In this document: piece after piece, positions 5,406-31,799 of the stretch
Position numbering within the stretch: the first letter of the stretch is position 1
Layout: each line of letters opens with the position of its first letter
From: Thermoflexus sp.
Lineage (GTDB): Bacteria; Chloroflexota; Anaerolineae; Aggregatilineales; Aggregatilineaceae
DNA length: 64,000 bases
Direction of reading: 5' to 3'
Assembly: GCA_020724465.1 (NCBI GenBank)
Contig: DYGX01000003.1
Coordinates: forward strand, 1-64,000
Program-made: the position numbers and the translations under genes
Notes under the pieces: generated by a model
Told to the model about the DNA's origin: nothing
What the model saw: the letters and a program-made list of their open reading frames with translations, nothing else
Database searches by the model: none

Positions 5406-7478
5406 TCAGCGCAGCACGCCCGCGGGCTGTTCGAGCGCCAGCGTCACGATGCGCGTGGTCCCATCGCCCGCGCTGAACACCGCCCGCCGGATCGCAAGCC
5501 GCGCCGGAAAGCTCGCCGATACCGAGAGCGTGCCCTCGCTGCCGACCGGTTGCCCGCTGGCGCGGTCCAGTTCCGCGCCGGACCGGTCAAAGACGGACAG
5601 CGTGTACTCCCCCGGCGCTTCGCCCAGATAGCCCACGCTCACACCGCCCACGTCCGCTCGCTCGGCCACCAGCTGCACGTCGAGCGACACGCACGCCGTC
5701 ATGTCATCCGGCAGACCCGTCCCCAGGTAGCGCCCCGTGTCGTGCACCACAATCCAGGGCACGGCGCCGGCACAGGCAGGGTCGTCGTTGGGCACAGCCT
5801 CCAGCCGCACCCCCCACGGGCTGAAGGTAGTGGGTTCAACCGGGCGCGATTCGTCCACCACAGTCCCGTCGGGCAGCTCCTCGAAGGTCAGCGCCAGCGG
5901 GCCATCGCCGGTCACGATCGGGCTGCGCCGGAAATTGTTGAATTCGTCAGTTTCGCGCACATTGTTGGCCGTGTCGATGCGCACTTCCATGACAAAAGCG
6001 CCCCACCAGCTAAACACGTGCGGGATAAACAGCGTGGTGTTCTCGCCCGCCGCCAGACGCTCCACTGTGCCGCTTCCCGCCGGGTTCGGGTCAAGTACGT
6101 CTTCCAGAAAGCTGTACTCGAACGGACCCGCTTCCACCGGGCCGGCGTTGCTGATCTGGACAATCACCGCTGCCTTCTCGCCCGGGTTGGGGCGCTTGGG
6201 GAAGATCTCGATCCGCTCGACCACCAGGTCGGTTTCCACCACCGGGGGCGGGGTGGGCGGTTGGCGCTCGCTCAGCAGCACGGCGAGCAGCGCCAGCGCC
6301 AGCACCACGATCACTCCCGCCGCCGCGACAAGCGCGCGCGGTACGTGCGGGCGCGCCTGCTCCTGCCCCGCGAAGTCAAACAGCATGCCGTCCGCGGCCC
6401 GCATATACAGCACAGGAGTCGCCCACGCGGTTCCTCTCGAGATGTGGCTGATCGCCCGCCGCGCCTCGGATACGGCCGCGTCGATGGGCAGCCCCTCGGC
6501 GACGGCGCGGTACAACTCTTCGGCAAAGACCCGCGCCACATCGTCGGCGATCGCCTGCTGCATGGCGATGACCGCCGGCACGCCGCGCGCCACGATACTG
6601 CTCGCCAGCCCGGCAAACGGATCGCGCGGCTGCTCCACCCCGCTCTGGCACGAGTTCAGCACCGCCAGGCGGATCGTATTCTCCTCGCTCAGCTCGCGCG
6701 CCAGGTCTTCGGCGCGCACCGGGACGCTGCCGCCATCGCCGAACGGGTCTTCGAGCGCCAACATCCCCTGCCCGGTTGCGGGATCAAACGTGCTGTGGCC
6801 GATGTAATGAAAGACATGGAACTCGCGCAAGCGCAGGGTTCGCTGCAGCGCCCGCAGCGACGCGTCTTCGATCCGCTCCAGTTCCAACAGCCCGCGAGCG
6901 CGAAGCTGCGCCGTCGCCACGAGCACGTTTTGCCACTCCGCTTCGGCATCCACCGGCGGCAGATCGGCCGGGCTGGAAATCATCACCAGAATGCGTAGCG
7001 GCGGACGGAACACAGGGCGCGGGCGAATCACCAGGCGGCGCGGGTGGCGGACCAGCGGGGTCGTGCGCGAGAGGGCAAGATAGTCGATCGCCGGGTCGCG
7101 CAGCAGCTCCCAGGGCAACGAGGCCAGGTCCCCGGCGTCGTCAAGCGCCAGCTTGATGCGCAGCCCCTGGGCGGTGCGGGCGCGATCCCGGCTGGAGAAG
7201 TAGACCGTGTACACCGGCCCGGCAAACACCGCATCGAACAGCGCCTCGCCAAAGGCGCGCGCGGTGCGCAGCAGTTCCGCCTGCGAGACACGCACGCGCC
7301 CGCCCAGGATGTCCAGGATGCGTGCCAGCTCATCCGGAGCAAACGGCAGGCGGAAGTCGTTTGACACCTGCGATGGCCCCTCGCCCAATGGCATGTCGAC
7401 CACAGTCGCGCGGAAGCGTCCCTCGCCCAGGTCTTCAATGCGCAGCTCGAAGTCGAGATATGCCTGCTGTACGCTCAT
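5406..7478 (-). CDS. Membrane-anchored CHAT (caspase-like) protein with extracytoplasmic CARDB-like domain
   Basis: Predicted cysteine peptidase of the CHAT family (caspase HetF associated with TPRs), about 690 aa. The CHAT domain fills roughly residues 100-370. It carries both catalytic elements, His in HYIGHS (about residue 228) and Cys in LNSCQSG (about 277). One hydrophobic helix follows (about 382-402), then a Pro-rich stalk and a CARDB/Ig-like segment starting VVERIEIFPKRPNPGE, with a further beta-rich domain at the C-terminus. The CHAT domain should therefore be cytoplasmic and the CARDB part outside. An ATG nine codons upstream (7505) also fits, but AAGGG precedes the ATG at 7478. Substrate unknown. 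Its own terminator suggests a monocistronic unit. Confidence 0.85.
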   Translation of the reverse strand: MSVQQAYLDFELRIEDLGEGRFRATVVDMPLGEGPSQVSNDFRLPFAPDELARILDILGGRVRVSQAELLRTARAFGEALFDAVFAGPVYTVYFSSRDRARTAQGLRIKLALDDAGDLASLPWELLRDPAIDYLALSRTTPLVRHPRRLVIRPRPVFRPPLRILVMISSPADLPPVDAEAEWQNVLVATAQLRARGLLELERIEDASLRALQRTLRLREFHVFHYIGHSTFDPATGQGMLALEDPFGDGGSVPVRAEDLARELSEENTIRLAVLNSCQSGVEQPRDPFAGLASSIVARGVPAVIAMQQAIADDVARVFAEELYRAVAEGLPIDAAVSEARRAISHISRGTAWATPVLYMRAADGMLFDFAGQEQARPHVPRALVAAAGVIVVLALALLAVLLSERQPPTPPPVVETDLVVERIEIFPKRPNPGEKAAVIVQISNAGPVEAGPFEYSFLEDVLDPNPAGSGTVERLAAGENTTLFIPHVFSWWGAFVMEVRIDTANNVRETDEFNNFRRSPIVTGDGPLALTFEELPDGTVVDESRPVEPTTFSPWGVRLEAVPNDDPACAGAVPWIVVHDTGRYLGTGLPDDMTACVSLDVQLVAERADVGGVSVGYLGEAPGEYTLSVFDRSGAELDRASGQPVGSEGTLSVSASFPARLAIRRAVFSAGDGTTRIVTLALEQPAGVLR

Positions 7479-7567
7479 CGGATGCCCTTCCGTGCCGCCG
7501 TACATGCGAGTGCCCGTGCCTCGATTGTAAGAGCAGGCGCCCGTTTTTCAAAGCGCGCGCCCGAATC

Positions 7568-7599
7568 AAAAGGCTCCCCGCGGGCTGGCACGGGGAGCC
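7568..7599 (-). terminator. Intrinsic terminator after prfB
   Basis: A 9-bp perfect stem (GGCTCCCCG at 7572-7580, CGGGGAGCC at 7591-7599) with a 10-nt loop is followed on the minus strand by UUUUGAUU. It lies just past the prfB stop and ends the ftsY-prfB unit. Confidence 0.8.
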
Positions 7600-7623
7600 G
7601 GACGGTCCGATAACGCGCATCGG

Positions 7624-8716
7624 TCAGGTCGCCGCGCCCACGTGCGCCGCCAGATAGGCTTCCATGAAAGCATCGAGGTCGCCGTCAAGGACTGCCTGCG
7701 TGTTGCCGGTCTCGTACCCGCTACGCGTGTCCTTCACAAGCTGGTACGGGTGCAGCACGTACGAGCGGATGGCGTTGCCCCACCCCGCGCTGACGTGCTC
7801 GCCCTTTAGCTCGGCGAACTCCTCCTCCTGCTTGCGGCGCTCCAGGTCCAGCAGGCGCATCTTGAGCACCTGCAGCGCGCGCTCTTTGTTCTGCATCTGG
7901 CTGCGCTCGTTCTGGCAGCTTACGACCAGCCCGGTCGGCAGGTGGGTAATGCGCACCGCCGTCTCGTTCTTCTGCACGTTCTGGCCGCCCGCGCCGCTGC
8001 TGCGGAACGTGTCGATCTGCAGGTCCTTCTCGTCGATGGTGATATCGATTTCCTCTTGCACGTCCGGCCAGACCTCGACCAGACAGAACGATGTGTGTCG
8101 CCGGTTGGCCGCATCGAACGGGCTGAGGCGCACCAGCCGGTGGACGCCCGCCTCCGATTTCAGGTAGCCGTAGACGTAATCGCCCTGGATTGACACCGTG
8201 GCGCTCTTGATGCCCGCTTCATCGCCCGGCGTTTCATCGACGATCTCCGTCTTGAAGCCCCGGCGCTCGGCCCAGCGCAAATACATGCGCAGCAACATCG
8301 CGGCCCAGTCCTGCGCGTCGGTGCCCCCTGCCCCGGCGTGAATCGCCAGGTACGCGTCTTCCGCGTCGTACTTGCCGCCCAGCTTGGCGCGGAAGGCCAG
8401 CCGCTCGACGTCAGCGGCCAGCGCGTCGGCTTCGGCGGTCAGCTCCGGCACAAGCGATTCGTCATCCAGTTCCGCCAGCTCGATCGCGTCGTTCAACCGC
8501 TGTCGTGTGTTCAGCCACAGCCCGGTAGACTCTTTCAGCCGCGCCAGCCGGCGCATCGTTCGCTGCGCCGTGTCCGGATCATCCCAGAATCCAGCCTGGG
8601 TCGATTGCTCTTCGAGGCGCGCGACCTCATCCACATCCGCCGCTACGTCAAAGACGCTCCATAAGCTGTTCGACCGTGCGGCGCATCTCGTTCAATCGGC
8701 TCACCAGGTTCTCCAC
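7624..8716 (-). CDS. prfB: Peptide chain release factor 2, made by programmed +1 frameshift
   Basis: RF2 releases peptides at UGA and UAA codons. The gene is split into two frames. A 22-codon first frame starts at GTG 8716 and ends CTT-TGA (TGA at 8650-8648). The second frame continues through 7624. The slippery sequence CTTTGAC at 8653-8647 is the classic prfB autoregulatory frameshift site, with an SD-like GGAG just upstream. Reading CTT then GAC joins the frames into a protein of about 363 aa, the usual RF2 size. Both hallmark motifs are present: SPF for stop-codon recognition and GGQ (SGAGGQNVQ) for hydrolysis. The ribosome-binding site GAGGAG lies inside the end of ftsY, and the start is 5 nt after the ftsY stop, so the two are coupled. 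Confidence 0.95.
8647..8653 (-). promoter_or_regulatory. Programmed +1 frameshift site of prfB
   Basis: CTTTGAC on the minus strand: CTT in the zero frame, an in-frame TGA, then C as the following base. The ribosome slips to GAC. A GGAG stretch 3 nt upstream can act as the internal Shine-Dalgarno stimulator. When RF2 is scarce the TGA is read slowly and slippage increases. Confidence 0.93.
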
Positions 8717-25898: not shown

Positions 25899-26561
25899 AT
25901 GGCAAATGCAGCAGACAAGCCCGTGCTGATCATTCACGAGGGTGAGAGAGCAGGCCAGCGGTGGATCGTCGAAGAAGATGAGCTGGTCATTGGCCGTGGG
26001 GGTGAGTGCGGGTTGGTGCTGCCCGAGCGGCAAGTCTCGCGCGAGCACGTCCGCATCTACCGCGCCGGAGACACTTATTACCTGGAAGACCTGGACAGCA
26101 AGAACGGCACCTGGGTCAATGGCCGCCAGATCAAAGGCGAGCCGGTGGCCCTGCGGGACGGGGACGAGATCAATATCGCGCTGGCGGTCAAGCTGACGTT
26201 CGTCGGCTCGGAAGCGACCGCCCCGCTGATGGTCAACGAGCTTCCGGGGTCGGTCGGGCGGCTCAAGCTCAACCGCGAGTCGCGGCGCGTGTTCATCGGC
26301 GGGCGCGAGGTTGACCCGCCGCTCAGCCTGCCCCAATATCGCCTGCTGGAACTGCTCTATGACGCGGGCGGCGCGGTCTGCACGCGCGACGGCGTGGTGG
26401 AAGCCGTCTGGCCGGATGCCGTGGGCGAAGGCGTCAGCGAGCAGGCCATCGACGCGCTGGTGCGACGCCTGCGCGACCGCCTGGCCGAGGTCGATCCGGA
26501 CAACCAGTACATCATCACCGTGCGCGGCCACGGCTTCCGGCTCGAAAACCCCGCCGAGTAG
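25899..26561 (+). CDS. FHA domain fused to OmpR-type winged-helix DNA-binding domain
   Basis: 220-aa regulator. The N-terminal FHA domain (about 9-105) has the phospho-threonine-binding residues: G32-R33 (VIGRGG), S47 and H50 (VSREHV), N69-G70 (SKNGTWVNG). The C-terminal domain (about 125-218) is an OmpR/PhoB-type winged helix: LPQYRLLELLYDAGGAVCTRDGV, AIDALVRRLRDRL, IITVRGHGFRL. This suggests a transcription factor recruited by Ser/Thr-kinase phosphorylation rather than a His-Asp relay. There is no receiver domain. AAGGACGAG precedes the ATG. A strong bidirectional terminator closes the gene. Confidence 0.9.
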   Translation: MANAADKPVLIIHEGERAGQRWIVEEDELVIGRGGECGLVLPERQVSREHVRIYRAGDTYYLEDLDSKNGTWVNGRQIKGEPVALRDGDEINIALAVKLTFVGSEATAPLMVNELPGSVGRLKLNRESRRVFIGGREVDPPLSLPQYRLLELLYDAGGAVCTRDGVVEAVWPDAVGEGVSEQAIDALVRRLRDRLAEVDPDNQYIITVRGHGFRLENPAE

Positions 26562-26644: not shown

Positions 26645-27355
26645 TTACATGCTGCCGAACAGCGCGCCGATCGCGTACCCGGCCAGCGCCGATACCATCC
26701 CGATCAGCATCATCTGCACGCCGCTGCGCGCCGGCCTGCCCACCGTGATGCGCGCCTTGAAAGCCCCCACCCCGAACAGCACCAGCGCGGACGCAATCAG
26801 GCCCACCCACATGGCCGTCACGCGCGGCAGAAAGAAAAACGGGAAGAGCGGCACCAGCGACCCCACCACCGCCGACGCACCCACCAGCAGCGCGTCGCTC
26901 AACAGGCCGTCTTCCTCGACCGGCTGGAGCTGCAACTCGTGCGCCATCATGATGTCCAGCCAGTGCCCTTCGTGGCGGGTGATGTGATCGACGGAGTCTT
27001 GCAGCAGCTTCCCTTCAAATCCCCAGCCGCGGAAGATCGCCTCGACCTCGGCGCGCTCGGCGTGCGGAGTGGCGCGGATCTCGGCGCGTTCCCGCGCGCG
27101 CTGGGCGCGGTAGTAGTCGAGGCTTGCCAGGTTGGACGTGTACGCCACCGCCGCCATCGAGATCGATTCGGCAAACGTCGCCGCCAGCCCACCGGCGACG
27201 ATCACCCGCGTGTCGGTCGTGGCCGCGGCCAGCCCCAGGATCACCCCCGCCACGTTCACCAGACCGTCCTGCCCGCCCAGGATAATCTCGCTCAGCTTGG
27301 CAGCGATCCGGTTCGCCCCCGTCTCCGCCCGGTCCCCCATCCCTTTGCCCTGCAC
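26645..27355 (-). CDS. VIT1/CCC1 family iron or manganese transporter
   Basis: 236 aa membrane protein of the vacuolar-iron-transporter family. Seen: GGQDGLVNVAGVILGLAAAT in the first helix, then the FAESISMAAVAYTSNLA helix. A cytoplasmic charged domain (ERAEIRATPHAERAEVEAIF) carries the acidic and His residues used for metal binding, and about three more helices follow. It likely moves Fe2+ or Mn2+ out of the cytoplasm. The GTG at 27355 or the ATG at 27340 could be the start. An inverted repeat at 27394-27419 is a candidate metal-responsive operator. Confidence 0.88.
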   Translation of the reverse strand: MQGKGMGDRAETGANRIAAKLSEIILGGQDGLVNVAGVILGLAAATTDTRVIVAGGLAATFAESISMAAVAYTSNLASLDYYRAQRARERAEIRATPHAERAEVEAIFRGWGFEGKLLQDSVDHITRHEGHWLDIMMAHELQLQPVEEDGLLSDALLVGASAVVGSLVPLFPFFFLPRVTAMWVGLIASALVLFGVGAFKARITVGRPARSGVQMMLIGMVSALAGYAIGALFGSM

Positions 27356-27516: not shown

Positions 27517-29502
27517 TTAGTCGGCGCTGCCGCACAGATCGACGTACTCCGTCTTGACGCGATCTTCCGCCGGGATCGCCAGCACATCGCTGAGGATCTC
27601 GTTGGCCAGCGCCGCTTTGAATTCGGCATCCGTCTTGGACCACGTGCGCGCTTTGATCTCGATGTAACGCTCGCCCATCTCCGGCTGCATCATGCGGTCG
27701 TAGTTGACATAGAACAGCACACCTTTGTACAGGATGTGCCAGCGCAGGCGATCCTTGTGGATTTCGCATTCACTGCGCGCCTGGAAATACTCGCGGTAAA
27801 AGCGCAGCGGGCGGTCTGCCGGGGCGATAAAGCGCGAGCGTGAGAGCAGCACCGCCTCGTCGAACTCGCGCTCTTTGGTCGGCGTGGTGTAGGTCAGGCG
27901 GGTCCGCACGTTGACCGGCTGGCCGTTTTCGTCGATGAAATCATCCTCGCGGTAGCGCACGCGGCCCATTTCTTCGTCGTCGAACAGGAAATACGTGTCG
28001 TACTGACGGTAGTGGTTGTGCTTGACGATCTCGACCGCCGGGTGCGCGGTCAGCGCCTCGAGCGGGCTTGTGTCGCCGGCACGCGCCTTGACCTGGATCT
28101 CGAAGCTTTCTTCCTGGTGCAGACCGCCGATTGCCACCAGCTTGTTGAGGACGTTTCCCTCGCGCGCTTCGAGAAAGGCGTCGATCCGGCGCGCGTAGTC
28201 GGTCGCCGCCGCGCGCAGCGCGTCTTCATCCAGCGTCAGCAACACGCGGTCGCGCATCAGCCAGCGCCCGTTGACCATCACGTGCTGGACGTCGGAGGCG
28301 TGCGTGGCGTAGACAAGCTGCGAGTAGATGCTATCCGGATTGCGCTCGAAGTGCGGCGCGTTGTGCAGCGGGCTGCGATCGACCACGATCAGATCGGCGC
28401 GCTTGCCGGGTTCCAGGCTGCCGGCGATGTCGCCCAGGGACAGCGCCTCGGCGCCCCAGCGCGTCGCCATCAGCAGTGCCTCTTTGGCGGGCAATACGAC
28501 CGGGTCATAGGTCGCGCCTTTGACCAGCAGCGCGGCCAGGCGCATCTCCTCGAACATATCCAGGTCGTTGTTGCTCGCGGCGCCGTCCGTGCCCACGCTG
28601 AGCTTGACGCCGCGCTCCAGCATCTCTTTGATCGGCGCGATCCCGCTCGCCAGCTTGAGGTTGCTGGTCGGGTTGTGCGCCACAGCCACGTTGTGCTCGC
28701 GCAGTATCCGGATCTGGTCGGCGTCGACATGAACGCAGTGCGCCGCCAGCGTCTTGGCGCGGAACACGCCGAGATCGGCCACGCGCTCGACCACCTTCTT
28801 CTCGAATTCTGCCCAGCTATCTTCAGCTTCCTGGCGCGTCTCCAGAATGTGAATTTGCAGCGGCACGTCGTACTCAATGGCGAGATCAGCGCAGGCCTGC
28901 AAGATCTCGTCGGTGCAGGTATACGGCGCGTGCGGCGCCACCGACGGTACGATCAAGGGGTGTCCCTTCCACTCCTCGATGAAGCGACGCGTATAGGCCA
29001 GGCTCTCTTCGTAACTTTCGGCGTCTGGCGCGGGGAACTTCATCACCGTCTGCCCGCAGACGCCGCGCATCCCGGCCTCGGCGGTGGCCGCTGCCACATC
29101 GGCCTCGTAGTAGTACATGTCCGCGAACAGCGTCGTGCCGCCCCGGATCATCTCCGCGCACGAGAGCAGCGTCCCCAGACGGCAGAACTCAGGCGTGACG
29201 AATTCGCGCTCGGTTGGCATCATGTAGCCCAGCAGCCACACATCCAGCCGCAGGTCGTCGGCCATCGCGCGCAGCAAAGACATCGGCATGTGCGTGTGGG
29301 CGTTGACCAGACCGGGCAAGACGATCTGGCCGGTGCAGTCGACGACTTCGTCCGCTTCGTACCGCTGGCGAAGCGTCTCAGCCGGGCCGACTGCCACAAT
29401 GCTGTCGCCCCGGACCGCGACCGCGCCGTTATCGAAGCGATCCATCGCCTCATTCATCGGCAGCACAACCCCGCCCACCAAAAGGGTATCGACTTTTTCC
29501 AT
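27517..29502 (-). CDS. Amidohydrolase (MtaD-like deaminase) fused to a CYTH-like domain
   Basis: 661 aa. Residues 1 to about 440 are an amidohydrolase resembling methylthioadenosine/S-adenosylhomocysteine deaminase. Metal ligands are H69 and H71 (VNAHTHMPMS), His in SVAPHAPYT, His in AAHCVHVD and Asp in VGTDGAASNND. The domain ends LGDIAGSLEPGKRADLIVVD. Residues about 455-655 resemble a CYTH (triphosphate-tunnel) domain: FEIQVKAR for the ExExK strand, YRQYDTYFLF, GRVRYRE, LTYTTPTKEREF and ERYIEIKAR. The second Glu of ExExK is Gln, so triphosphate catalysis is uncertain. AAAGGA precedes the ATG. Monocistronic, divergent from the membrane EEP gene. The fusion is unusual in my knowledge. Confidence 0.85.
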   Translation of the reverse strand: MEKVDTLLVGGVVLPMNEAMDRFDNGAVAVRGDSIVAVGPAETLRQRYEADEVVDCTGQIVLPGLVNAHTHMPMSLLRAMADDLRLDVWLLGYMMPTEREFVTPEFCRLGTLLSCAEMIRGGTTLFADMYYYEADVAAATAEAGMRGVCGQTVMKFPAPDAESYEESLAYTRRFIEEWKGHPLIVPSVAPHAPYTCTDEILQACADLAIEYDVPLQIHILETRQEAEDSWAEFEKKVVERVADLGVFRAKTLAAHCVHVDADQIRILREHNVAVAHNPTSNLKLASGIAPIKEMLERGVKLSVGTDGAASNNDLDMFEEMRLAALLVKGATYDPVVLPAKEALLMATRWGAEALSLGDIAGSLEPGKRADLIVVDRSPLHNAPHFERNPDSIYSQLVYATHASDVQHVMVNGRWLMRDRVLLTLDEDALRAAATDYARRIDAFLEAREGNVLNKLVAIGGLHQEESFEIQVKARAGDTSPLEALTAHPAVEIVKHNHYRQYDTYFLFDDEEMGRVRYREDDFIDENGQPVNVRTRLTYTTPTKEREFDEAVLLSRSRFIAPADRPLRFYREYFQARSECEIHKDRLRWHILYKGVLFYVNYDRMMQPEMGERYIEIKARTWSKTDAEFKAALANEILSDVLAIPAEDRVKTEYVDLCGSAD

Positions 29503-29636: not shown

Positions 29637-31799
29637 ATGCCGCCCATGTTACAACTTCGCCGGGATCTGCTCCGCTCGTTAGAGGCTGGGATGGTGGGTC
29701 TGCTTCTGATCCAGGCCATCCGCTTTGTGTATGCCAGCCTGTACGCGAGAGCCAGCAGTGCCGATCTGGTCCAGCGTGCCGTCGATCGCGCCGCACTGGA
29801 AGGCGTGCCCGGCGTCGTCGAGCTGACGACCGTGCAAAACGAGATCGTCGCGCTGGGTGCACTGCTGCTTCTGCCGATCCTGGCCCTGGTGATCGGGCGC
29901 TGGCGCGCCAGCCTGCCCTTCGCGGTGATCCTGGCGGCTTTGGGGCGCTCGCTCGCCATTCAGACGCCGAACCTGGAAGTGGTGGCGGCCTCGCTGGTCA
30001 TCGGTGCCGGCCTGCTCTACCTCGCGCTGGTGATCATCCGCCGGCCCGCCTTCTTCCCGGTCATGATCCTGGTCGGGCTGGCCGGGGACCAGCTTATCCG
30101 CGTGTTGGGCAACACGCAGGACTACACCTGGCAGGGCGGCTATCAGGTGGCCCTGGTGGGGACCGTCACGGTGGCGATCGACATTCTCATTTCGCTGGCC
30201 GCGATCGTGCTGATCCTTCTGTCGATCGGGCTGTGGTTCATCGAGCAGCGCGAATCGCGCGCCGAGGGATACACGCCTCCACCGCGCGGCGTGCTCAACG
30301 TGTGGGGAGCGCTGGCGCTGGGAGGCATCTTGTTCCTGGAACTGACCGTCCTGGCGCTGCCCAACGTCGTCGCGCGCTGGTCGGGCGTTGAGTACACCGG
30401 CGTCGTCCCCTGGATGCTGGCGGCGACTCTACTTCCCCTGGTGCCGGAGATCCGCGAAGGCGCGCGCCGCTTCGCAGGCATGTTCGACGGGGCCTGGCGC
30501 GGCTGGCTGTGGCTGTTGCTGCTCGGCCTGCTGCTCGTCGTCGGGCGCCGCTACGATGGAATTGCGGCGGCGGTCGCGCTGGCGCTGGCCCAGTTTGTCG
30601 TCGGCCTGACGCTGTGGTGGCTGATCCAGGTGGGCGAGCCGCGCCGCAACCTGACCGGTCTGACGCTTCCCTTCGCCGTGGTGTCTTTTGCGCTGCTGGC
30701 AGCGGGCGAATATTTCACCTACGACTACGCCTACGTGCGCGATTTCGCCCCGCCCTATGACCGGGTGGACGACTTTCTGCGCGCCCTGCGCGGGATGGGC
30801 CTGGGGCTGGCGCTGGTCGCGGCGCTGCTCACTGCGCTCCCGATGATCCTGGCGCGGCGGCGCATCCCCTGGCGCGGCGGGCGCGCGTCGTACACCTTCC
30901 TGACGCTGCTGCTGGTGATCGCGGTCAGCGCGGGCGGAGCGGCTGCGGCGGCGAGCAGTGGCGTCCGGCGCCCAGTCGATCCCGACTGCCTGCGCGTGGC
31001 GACGTTCAACATCCACGGCGGCTACTCCCAGTTCTTCGACCCGAACCTGGAGCGCGTCGCCCGGCTGATCGAGCAGAGCGGCGCCGACGTGGTCCTGCTG
31101 CAAGAGGTCGAGGCCGGACGGCTGGCCAGCTTCGGCGTCGATCAGGTGCTGTGGCTGGCGCGGCGGCTGCGGATGGAGTCGGTGTTCTTCCCGCAGAACG
31201 AGGAACTGCAGGGCCTGGCCGTCCTCAGCCGCGTGCCGGTTGCCGGGTCGCAGGGCCTGCTGCTTCCCAGCGAGGGCAATCAGGCGGCTGTGCTGCATGT
31301 CGAGCTGGACCCCGAGCGCCTGGTCGCCGACCCGGATGCGGCCTCGTTGGGCGGGCTGCACGTCTACAACGCCTGGCTTGGTTTCCGGCTGGCCGAGCGT
31401 AACGGCCAGCCCATCCCCGAAGGCGAGCAGGATCAGAACCGTCAGATGCGGATGCTGCTGGACTGGATCGCGACCGTTCACGGGCCGGACTGGACCGAAC
31501 GTATTCTGCTCGGCGGGACATTCAACTTCGGTCCGGATTCGCCCCTCTACCGGTTCCTGCGCATGGACAACCTCGCCAATCCCGGCATTCAGGATCCCTT
31601 CGCCAGCCTGCGCGAAGAAGAGACGATGACCGTCTTCCTGGTCAACGGGACGGCGGCGCGCTATGACTACCTGTGGACCTTCAACCTGCCGCTGATCGGG
31701 ATGTTGATTGACCACAGCCCGGAAGCGGCCCTCGCCTCGGACCACCGGCCGGCGATCGTGGCGATTGCGCGCCGCGACGGCGTCACCTGCCAGCCGTAA
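29637..31799 (+). CDS. Polytopic membrane protein with C-terminal endonuclease/exonuclease/phosphatase-like domain
   Basis: 720 aa. The first ~430 residues hold about eleven transmembrane helices with no recognised family. From about residue 450 an EEP fold follows: N458 in RVATFNIHGGY, E490 in VVLLQEVE, and D702-H703 in SDHRP. The central GDFN motif is GGTFN, so Thr628 stands where Asp is expected; this may reduce or abolish hydrolysis. Relatives with this layout are thought to be phosphodiesterases or lipid phosphatases. The domain side is not certain. It starts with ATG after GAGGCAATGCC, with a weak TACAAT at 29581-29586. The next gene follows after 30 bp. Confidence 0.75.
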   Translation: MPPMLQLRRDLLRSLEAGMVGLLLIQAIRFVYASLYARASSADLVQRAVDRAALEGVPGVVELTTVQNEIVALGALLLLPILALVIGRWRASLPFAVILAALGRSLAIQTPNLEVVAASLVIGAGLLYLALVIIRRPAFFPVMILVGLAGDQLIRVLGNTQDYTWQGGYQVALVGTVTVAIDILISLAAIVLILLSIGLWFIEQRESRAEGYTPPPRGVLNVWGALALGGILFLELTVLALPNVVARWSGVEYTGVVPWMLAATLLPLVPEIREGARRFAGMFDGAWRGWLWLLLLGLLLVVGRRYDGIAAAVALALAQFVVGLTLWWLIQVGEPRRNLTGLTLPFAVVSFALLAAGEYFTYDYAYVRDFAPPYDRVDDFLRALRGMGLGLALVAALLTALPMILARRRIPWRGGRASYTFLTLLLVIAVSAGGAAAAASSGVRRPVDPDCLRVATFNIHGGYSQFFDPNLERVARLIEQSGADVVLLQEVEAGRLASFGVDQVLWLARRLRMESVFFPQNEELQGLAVLSRVPVAGSQGLLLPSEGNQAAVLHVELDPERLVADPDAASLGGLHVYNAWLGFRLAERNGQPIPEGEQDQNRQMRMLLDWIATVHGPDWTERILLGGTFNFGPDSPLYRFLRMDNLANPGIQDPFASLREEETMTVFLVNGTAARYDYLWTFNLPLIGMLIDHSPEAALASDHRPAIVAIARRDGVTCQP

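Follow-up and report, generated by a model that had tools for sequence, protein, structure and literature searches.

The reverse-strand gene described here raises the question of whether a single polypeptide can join a nucleoside deaminase to a triphosphate tunnel, and whether such a tunnel would cut its ligand or only hold it. The gene lies in the window, which is the whole stretch of 64,000 nucleotides of the Thermoflexus sp. contig DYGX01000003.1 that was analyzed. The original prediction was made from the nucleotide sequence and described an MtaD-like amidohydrolase with all of its metal ligands, fused to a CYTH-like domain of about 200 residues. The limits that it gave for the gene were correct. 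The features of the gene and of its neighbors in the window are collected in Table 1.

Table 1. Positions of the fusion gene, its domains and motifs, and the adjoining genes in the window.
Feature	Coordinates	Strand	Basis
Fusion gene, MtaD-like deaminase + CYTH/TTM-like domain	27517..29502	-	661-aa ORF (ATG start at 29502, stop at 27517); fused orthologs
Amidohydrolase (MtaD/TRZ-ATZ-like) domain, residues 1-446	28165..29502	-	Pfam Amidohydro_1; match to PDB 4f0r
CYTH/TTM-like domain, residues 448-661 and stop	27517..28161	-	Profiles, hhalign, structure model
Span with metal ligands and acid E221	28585..29298	-	Invariant 92/92
H69, metal ligand	29296-29298	-
H71, metal ligand	29290-29292	-
H218, metal ligand	28849-28851	-
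E221, acid	28840-28842	-
H255, metal ligand	28738-28740	-
D306, metal ligand	28585-28587	-
E468-x-Q470-x-K472, altered ExExK hallmark (second Glu to Gln)	28087..28101	-	92/92 fused proteins
D502-x-Y504, DxY motif	27991..27999	-	92/92
R516-x-R518-E519-D520, putative RxR triphosphate-binding strand	27943..27957	-	92/92
K583-x-R585-x-R587, putative basic tunnel strand	27742..27756	-	92/92
E615-x-K617, strand 8 ExE (metal-1 Glu kept, metal-2 Glu to Lys)	27652..27660	-	92/92
Small protein with FHA and Trans_reg_C winged-helix domains	25899-26561	+
VIT family membrane protein	26645-27355	-
720-aa protein, C-terminal endonuclease/exonuclease/phosphatase domain	29637-31799	+

The N-terminal half was identified as an amidohydrolase by the match of residues 60-414 to the Pfam family Amidohydro_1 (PF01979), with an E-value of 1.2e-78 and 265.3 bits against a cut-off of 25. 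The roles of the HxH...H...H...D metal ligands and of the catalytic acid are well established in the amidohydrolase superfamily. Here, all 92 distinct full-length proteins (obtained from 111 proteins longer than 600 aa) have H69, H71, H218, H255, D306 and the acid E221, together with the further conserved polar residues E98, R146 and H191. The Pfam match and the invariant ligands bear out the predicted MtaD-like enzyme. By sequence, the nearest solved structure in the PDB is the MTA/SAH deaminase 4f0r (E 2.3e-99), and the MtaD family (4f0r, 4dyk and 1p1m, which is TM0936) has the same domain, metal ligands and length as residues 1-446. The solved MtaD relatives are chains of 406-472 residues, whereas the fusion protein has 661. 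Unlike the MTA/SAH and 5'-deoxyadenosine deaminases, the fusion protein falls under the curated NCBIfam cut-offs for those enzymes (331.2 of 779 bits for PRK15493 and 346.6 of 522 bits for PRK07228, respectively), and the best NCBIfam match, PRK09045, is also under its cut-off at 467.8 of 540 bits. Judged by its sequence, the deaminase half probably acts on adenosine-type nucleosides.

The distribution of the fusion was obtained by searching with the C-terminal tail. With the source genome included, matches were found in 53 of 61 relatives, in 183 of 298 class genomes (a few of these matches weak, for example E 8.6e-4 in genome G275) and in 63 of 301 genomes of the phylum, one of which (G590) is a false match in a PhoU protein. 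The phylum matches include families of other classes (f72, f82, f108, f111 and f129). A profile built from 68 tails detected 62 of the 301 phylum genomes with one match each; the E-values of these matches run from 4e-97 to 1e-75, and nothing else was detected at E<=1e-4. These tails lie in frames of at least 658 aa in 61 of the 62 cases, and the remaining frame, of 347 aa in genome G467, stops at a contig end. Both halves were located in 115 frames among 117 loci, which include repeated coverage of some genes. Of the two loci left over, L107 is interrupted by the end of its contig and L106 is a chance match in a PhoU protein. The fusion is therefore real, and these 115 frames rule out a frame error as well as the assembly artefact against which the original prediction had warned.

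The proposed survey of fused and split versions gave a widespread fused form. No free-standing tail was found among the matches listed by the single-sequence searches of the relatives, the class (all but the weakest matches) and the phylum or by the profile search of the phylum, and the coordinates of the listed tail frames shorter than 600 aa from the relatives and the class (G001, G012, G042, G273 and G332) show that these run up to the end of a contig. Two tail matches are present in at least six class genomes (G080, G168, G175, G197, G225 and G332), so more than one copy can occur in a genome. No relatives of the fusion were detected in the viral contigs and plasmids that were searched. 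A scan of 84,980 species with patterns derived from the single sequence returned four loci, all labelled Anaerolineae or Anaerolinea.

The deaminase half was also used as the query against 60 class genomes and provided 40 matches stronger than E 1e-130. Thirty-eight of these are in frames of at least 657 aa, one (G064) is cut by a contig end, and one (G080) is in a frame of 572 aa located 354 bases from the contig start. The next best deaminase matches in the same genomes are three unfused cousins with 46-48% identity. The tree placed 68 fused N-terminal domains and one contig-cut sequence together with a support of 0.486 against the three cousins, while the same group plus the cousins has a support of 1.0. 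At a support of 0.486, the unfused cousins may have lost the tail.

The conserved part of the tail starts at about residue 448-465. The tail encoded in the window matches the Pfam family CYTH (PF01928) at E 0.033 with 14.5 bits, under the cut-off of 23.2, which places the original CYTH-like call at the limit of what one sequence can provide. The orthologs strengthen this call: of 68 ortholog tails, 43 have a Pfam CYTH match at E<=1, the best of them at 5.7e-9, and several exceed the cut-off in a six-frame search, with up to 29.3 bits. The values for single loci include 27.1 bits (L097), 21.6 bits (L095) and no match (L102). When the tail profile was aligned by hhalign with 25 free-standing CYTH proteins of the relatives, an E-value of 4.7e-5 and a probability of 68 were obtained, and the ExQxK and EIK motifs of the tail were paired with ExExK and ExE, respectively. 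E468 is placed at the first Glu by both Pfam (profile position 3) and hhalign; the first aligned positions of the structural matches described below hint at a shift of two residues in strand 1, a strand modeled at low confidence. No TTM protein was found when the PDB sequences were searched with the tail or its profile.

A structural model of the tail was generated from five sequences and is of low confidence, with a pLDDT of 54, a pTM of 0.55 and seven strands of at least three residues, where a complete TTM tunnel has eight; the full-length AlphaFold2 model from five sequences has a pLDDT of 38.5. The best structural matches of this low-confidence tail model are SaTTM (7ns8), PH1819 (2een), CyaB (3n0z) and AtTTM3 (5a68). 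Foldseek ranked PH1819 first (E 2.2e-3, probability 1.00) and SaTTM second (E 4.1e-3, probability 0.99), followed in the list by MHC molecules, and gave no match at E<=0.001. All of ranks 1-12 from VIA are CYTH/TTM proteins, with Z from 9.1 to 7.9 over 152-162 residues and with MHC rows near Z 3; the best Z of unmatched models is typically 7 to 8, so that the value of 9.1 for the tail is modestly higher. The structure prediction that had been proposed for residues 450-661 thus gave TTM structures as the best matches, and did so at low confidence.

Twenty-two columns of the tail, 16 of them charged, are invariant in the 92 proteins. These include the tunnel and motif residues E468, Q470, K472, D502, Y504, R516, R518, K583, R585, D602, E615 and K617, together with E519, D520, R567, F568, E571, Y572, R587, W621, D625 and A626. 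Invariant residues two positions apart occur as eight pairs against a mean expectation of 2.16, and eight pairs were reached in 8 of 20000 random draws, which ignore the clustering of motifs. This spacing fits tunnel-lining strands. Taken from the profiles and the low-confidence model, residues 450-661 look like a divergent CYTH/triphosphate-tunnel (TTM) domain, and the tail may already carry a CYTH-like label in protein databases.

The Mediator subunits Med18 and Med20 have a TTM-like fold, and Mediator chains are found among the VIA matches of the tail model at Z 6.3-7.7, in keeping with a tail that has the fold only and serves as a structural or oligomerization module. A pure scaffold is not expected to hold 12 tunnel and motif residues fixed across several classes. 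Since all 12 of those named above are present in 92 of 92 proteins, the scaffold reading is disfavored and we regard it as quite improbable.

The motifs of the tail differ from those of TTM proteins at two fixed positions. The change from ExExK to ExQxK that had been predicted from the single sequence is present in 92 of 92 fused proteins. A second change, ExK in place of ExE in strand 8, is absent from the original prediction and is also found in 92 of 92. Among the 30 best-scoring free-standing CYTH proteins of the same order in the family search, ExExK and ExE are present in 30 of 30; the tail has also lost the strand-4 Lys and the strand-5 Glu pair of free-standing CYTH proteins. Common to the tail and the TTM proteins are RxR, KxR, DxY, the metal-1 Glu and the place of the plug-helix Tyr, which is occupied by Tyr653 in 88 of 92 proteins. 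K583 and R585 were aligned by eye with K110 and R112 of SaTTM; in the automatic alignment, K110 is opposite R587 instead.

The two altered positions correspond to metal ligands described for characterized TTM proteins. For AtTTM3 and YgiF, metal site 1 is described as binding the substrate and metal site 2 as activating water (PMC4641920). According to the same source, site 1 of AtTTM3 is formed by Glu169 and site 2 by Glu2, Glu4, Glu90 and Glu171 (Martinez 2015, PMC4641920); activity is strongly lowered by changes of Glu2, Glu4 or Glu169, and a change of Glu6 lowers the activity of YgiF. For SaTTM, the second Glu of ExE is reported to bind metal 2, and DxY to hold a substrate-coordinating water (PMC8233210). 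By alignment, the tail keeps the metal-1 Glu and the phosphate-binding residues of RxR, KxR and DxY and loses two metal-2 ligands. With Gln470 and Lys617 in place of the metal-2 Glu residues, metal site 2 is predicted to be absent. The hint of binding rather than catalysis that accompanied the original prediction is thereby stronger than was claimed, as two metal-2 ligands and not one are replaced in 92 of 92 proteins.

Two catalytic assignments were considered and rejected from the motifs. HFxxxxExExK is given as the mark of class IV cyclases and W/YxRxR as that of ThTPases (PMC8233210). The HF motif is absent from the tail, where positions 462-463 vary and no Phe occurs at position 463 in the 92 proteins, and the synthesis of cAMP that had been listed among the options (a CyaB-type adenylate cyclase) is disfavored because of this absence. 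Thiamine triphosphatase was rejected because W/YxRxR is absent; position 514 is Arg in 83 of 92 proteins, Trp in one and Tyr in one.

The tail could instead have remained an enzyme with altered chemistry, either as a pyrophosphatase resembling plant TTM1/2 or in phosphate transfer resembling the polyphosphate polymerase Vtc4. The number of invariant and charged columns and the retention of DxY in 92 of 92 proteins are in line with this alternative, and TTM proteins that do not have the acidic patch are reported to be active in some cases (PMC8233210, PMC4641920). Vtc4 is described as having metal site 1 without site 2 (PMC4641920), as is predicted for the tail, and plant TTM1 and TTM2 have neither ExExK nor ExE and retain DxY, the tail being likewise without the full acidic patch. 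Against this, TTM1/2 keep the aromatic W/YxRxR at which the tail mostly has Arg514. The catalytic Lys458 of Vtc4 (equivalent to Lys200 of AtTTM3) maps near the variable position 650, a rough placement at which Lys is found in 14 of 92 proteins, and the Lys at position 65 of the free-standing CYTH proteins is missing from the tail. The tail thus differs from Vtc4 and from TTM1/TTM2 in that no conserved polymerase Lys could be placed, W/YxRxR is missing and the fusion partner is another one. We consider an active tail of this kind unlikely.

The fusion partners of other CYTH domains provide a further comparison. Those described are CHAD, an HD hydrolase, an exopolyphosphatase, a nucleotidyl kinase and a phosphoribulokinase domain, and several of these fusions are linked to phosphate or nucleotide metabolism (PMC8233210). 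A nucleoside deaminase does not appear to be in the list of CYTH fusions given by that source. The Chloroflexota fusion differs from the known ones in its nucleoside deaminase partner and in the C-terminal position of the CYTH domain. Fusions of CYTH to CHAD (PMC8233210), together with the reported binding of polyphosphate by CHAD domains (PMC6537752), would also suit a tail that serves to anchor the deaminase on polyphosphate or on RNA with a 5'-triphosphate, with location and not allostery as its purpose. A CHAD or polyphosphate gene was not found among 18 Pfam-annotated neighbor proteins, and we hold tethering to be very improbable.

The genes adjoining the fusion were analyzed for a pathway. 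MTAP or PNP phosphorylase genes adjoin the fusion in several families and are absent at most loci. In the 60-genome class sample, 39 genomes have the fusion, and nine of these, belonging to seven families, have an MTAP over its cut-off at a distance of no more than 2.5 kb from it; all nine MTAP genes were checked on the DNA, are always tail to tail (convergent) with the fusion, and lie within about 300 bp of it in eight cases. Related families share synteny, and these nine neighbors are therefore not nine independent events. For the control gene ahcY, none of the 39 genomes has a copy over the cut-off within 5 kb of the fusion, five of the 39 having no copy over the cut-off. Further MTAP neighbors were found in L200 and L207, in families chosen because their kin had one. 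An earlier neighborhood sample (38 loci and the window) contained MTAP in 0 of 39 and PNP in 2 of 39. Three loci have, close to the fusion and on its strand, a PNP of the inosine/guanosine type that exceeds its curated cut-off; in L109 it lies downstream and overlaps the fusion, and in L098 and L189 it lies upstream, separated from the fusion by a single ORF. Within family f43, PNP is near the fusion in 2 of 10 loci read. The intervening ORF of L098 (272 aa, 7392-8207) has no Pfam or NCBIfam match, and an ORF of 270 aa occupies the equivalent place in L189 (2993-3805).

The motif TDYDxW, which we take to denote the adenine-specific form of MTAP, is present in 18 of 18 MTAPs read, the neighbors of the fusion included. 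With TDYDxW in these enzymes, a deaminase upstream of them is not needed, and an MTIP-type partner is unsupported. A salvage of SAH that replaces AhcY is likewise unsupported, as 55 of 60 class genomes have an ahcY that exceeds its cut-off. The source genome has MTAP and ahcY elsewhere on the same contig. A precedent for deamination before phosphorolysis is the P. aeruginosa route from MTA to MTI to hypoxanthine (PMC6302742).

The remaining neighbors were recorded. The small FHA and winged-helix protein is near the fusion in 10 of 39 neighborhoods, and the divergently transcribed 720-aa protein, whose N-terminal part appears hydrophobic by eye, is beside the fusion in 11 neighborhoods, all of the same order; both counts include the window. 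The VIT family protein follows the fusion at 165 bp on the same strand. The dephospho-CoA kinase gene coaE immediately follows the fusion, in the same orientation, in 8 of 8 fetched loci of families f72 and f108 (L094, L095, L096, L103, L105, L115, L116 and L117). CinA is directly upstream in three loci with glucan genes beside it. CoaE, CinA and VIT provide no clear functional lead, nor do the other neighbors (RNase III, a D-serine dehydratase-like protein, cobalamin adenosyltransferase and XerC/D). The source genome also encodes a CYTH protein apart from the fusion, free-standing and with the canonical motifs (L147; C4:203017-203442 of G000), which is under the NCBIfam cyaB cut-off at 53 of 57.95 bits.

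Three features together point to a tail that is a binding pseudoenzyme: the two halves stay fused, the tunnel residues do not vary, and two metal-2 ligands are replaced in every one of the 92 proteins. We give an even chance to the reading that the protein is a nucleoside deaminase controlled by a triphosphate-binding domain that does not hydrolyze its ligand. The N-terminal half would use its metal to deaminate an adenosine-type nucleoside, which could be MTA, 5'-deoxyadenosine, SAH or adenosine. The C-terminal tunnel would bind NTP or PPPi together with a single metal ion and would leave this triphosphate intact, and this binding would set the activity of the deaminase. We infer the binding of triphosphate, the lack of cleavage, the control of the deaminase and the choice of nucleoside. 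More tentatively, and at somewhat less than an even chance, the tail, its catalytic metal site lost, could have become an allosteric receiver for a triphosphate signal such as ATP/GTP or PPPi, and much of the Chloroflexota would then use it to gate the deamination of purine nucleosides or of nucleosides derived from SAM. Such a receiver would possibly represent a sensor class of TTM pseudoenzymes with an age of up to the common ancestor of several Chloroflexota classes.

AMP deaminase is regulated by ATP and GTP. The fusion protein would share its logic, with the deamination of adenine set by the level of a nucleotide triphosphate; the regulatory part of AMP deaminase is unrelated and its substrate is a nucleotide, whereas that of the fusion would be a nucleoside. 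Literature searches on CYTH/TTM with amidohydrolases, deaminases, fusions and Chloroflexota returned no report of the combination. The parts are known, and the combination of a deaminase with an altered CYTH tail is new as far as these searches show.

Many CYTH/TTM proteins have no settled biological role, and the fusion offers a testable case for the TTM fold as a sensor. If the tail is a sensor, the rate of the deaminase would be a built-in read-out for sensing by a TTM domain. If the proposed reading is true, the protein would be a control point between the level of a triphosphate and the salvage of SAM by-products or purines. For the Chloroflexota, a phylum little studied biochemically, the fusion suggests an unrecognized energy- or phosphate-controlled enzyme in many of its members.
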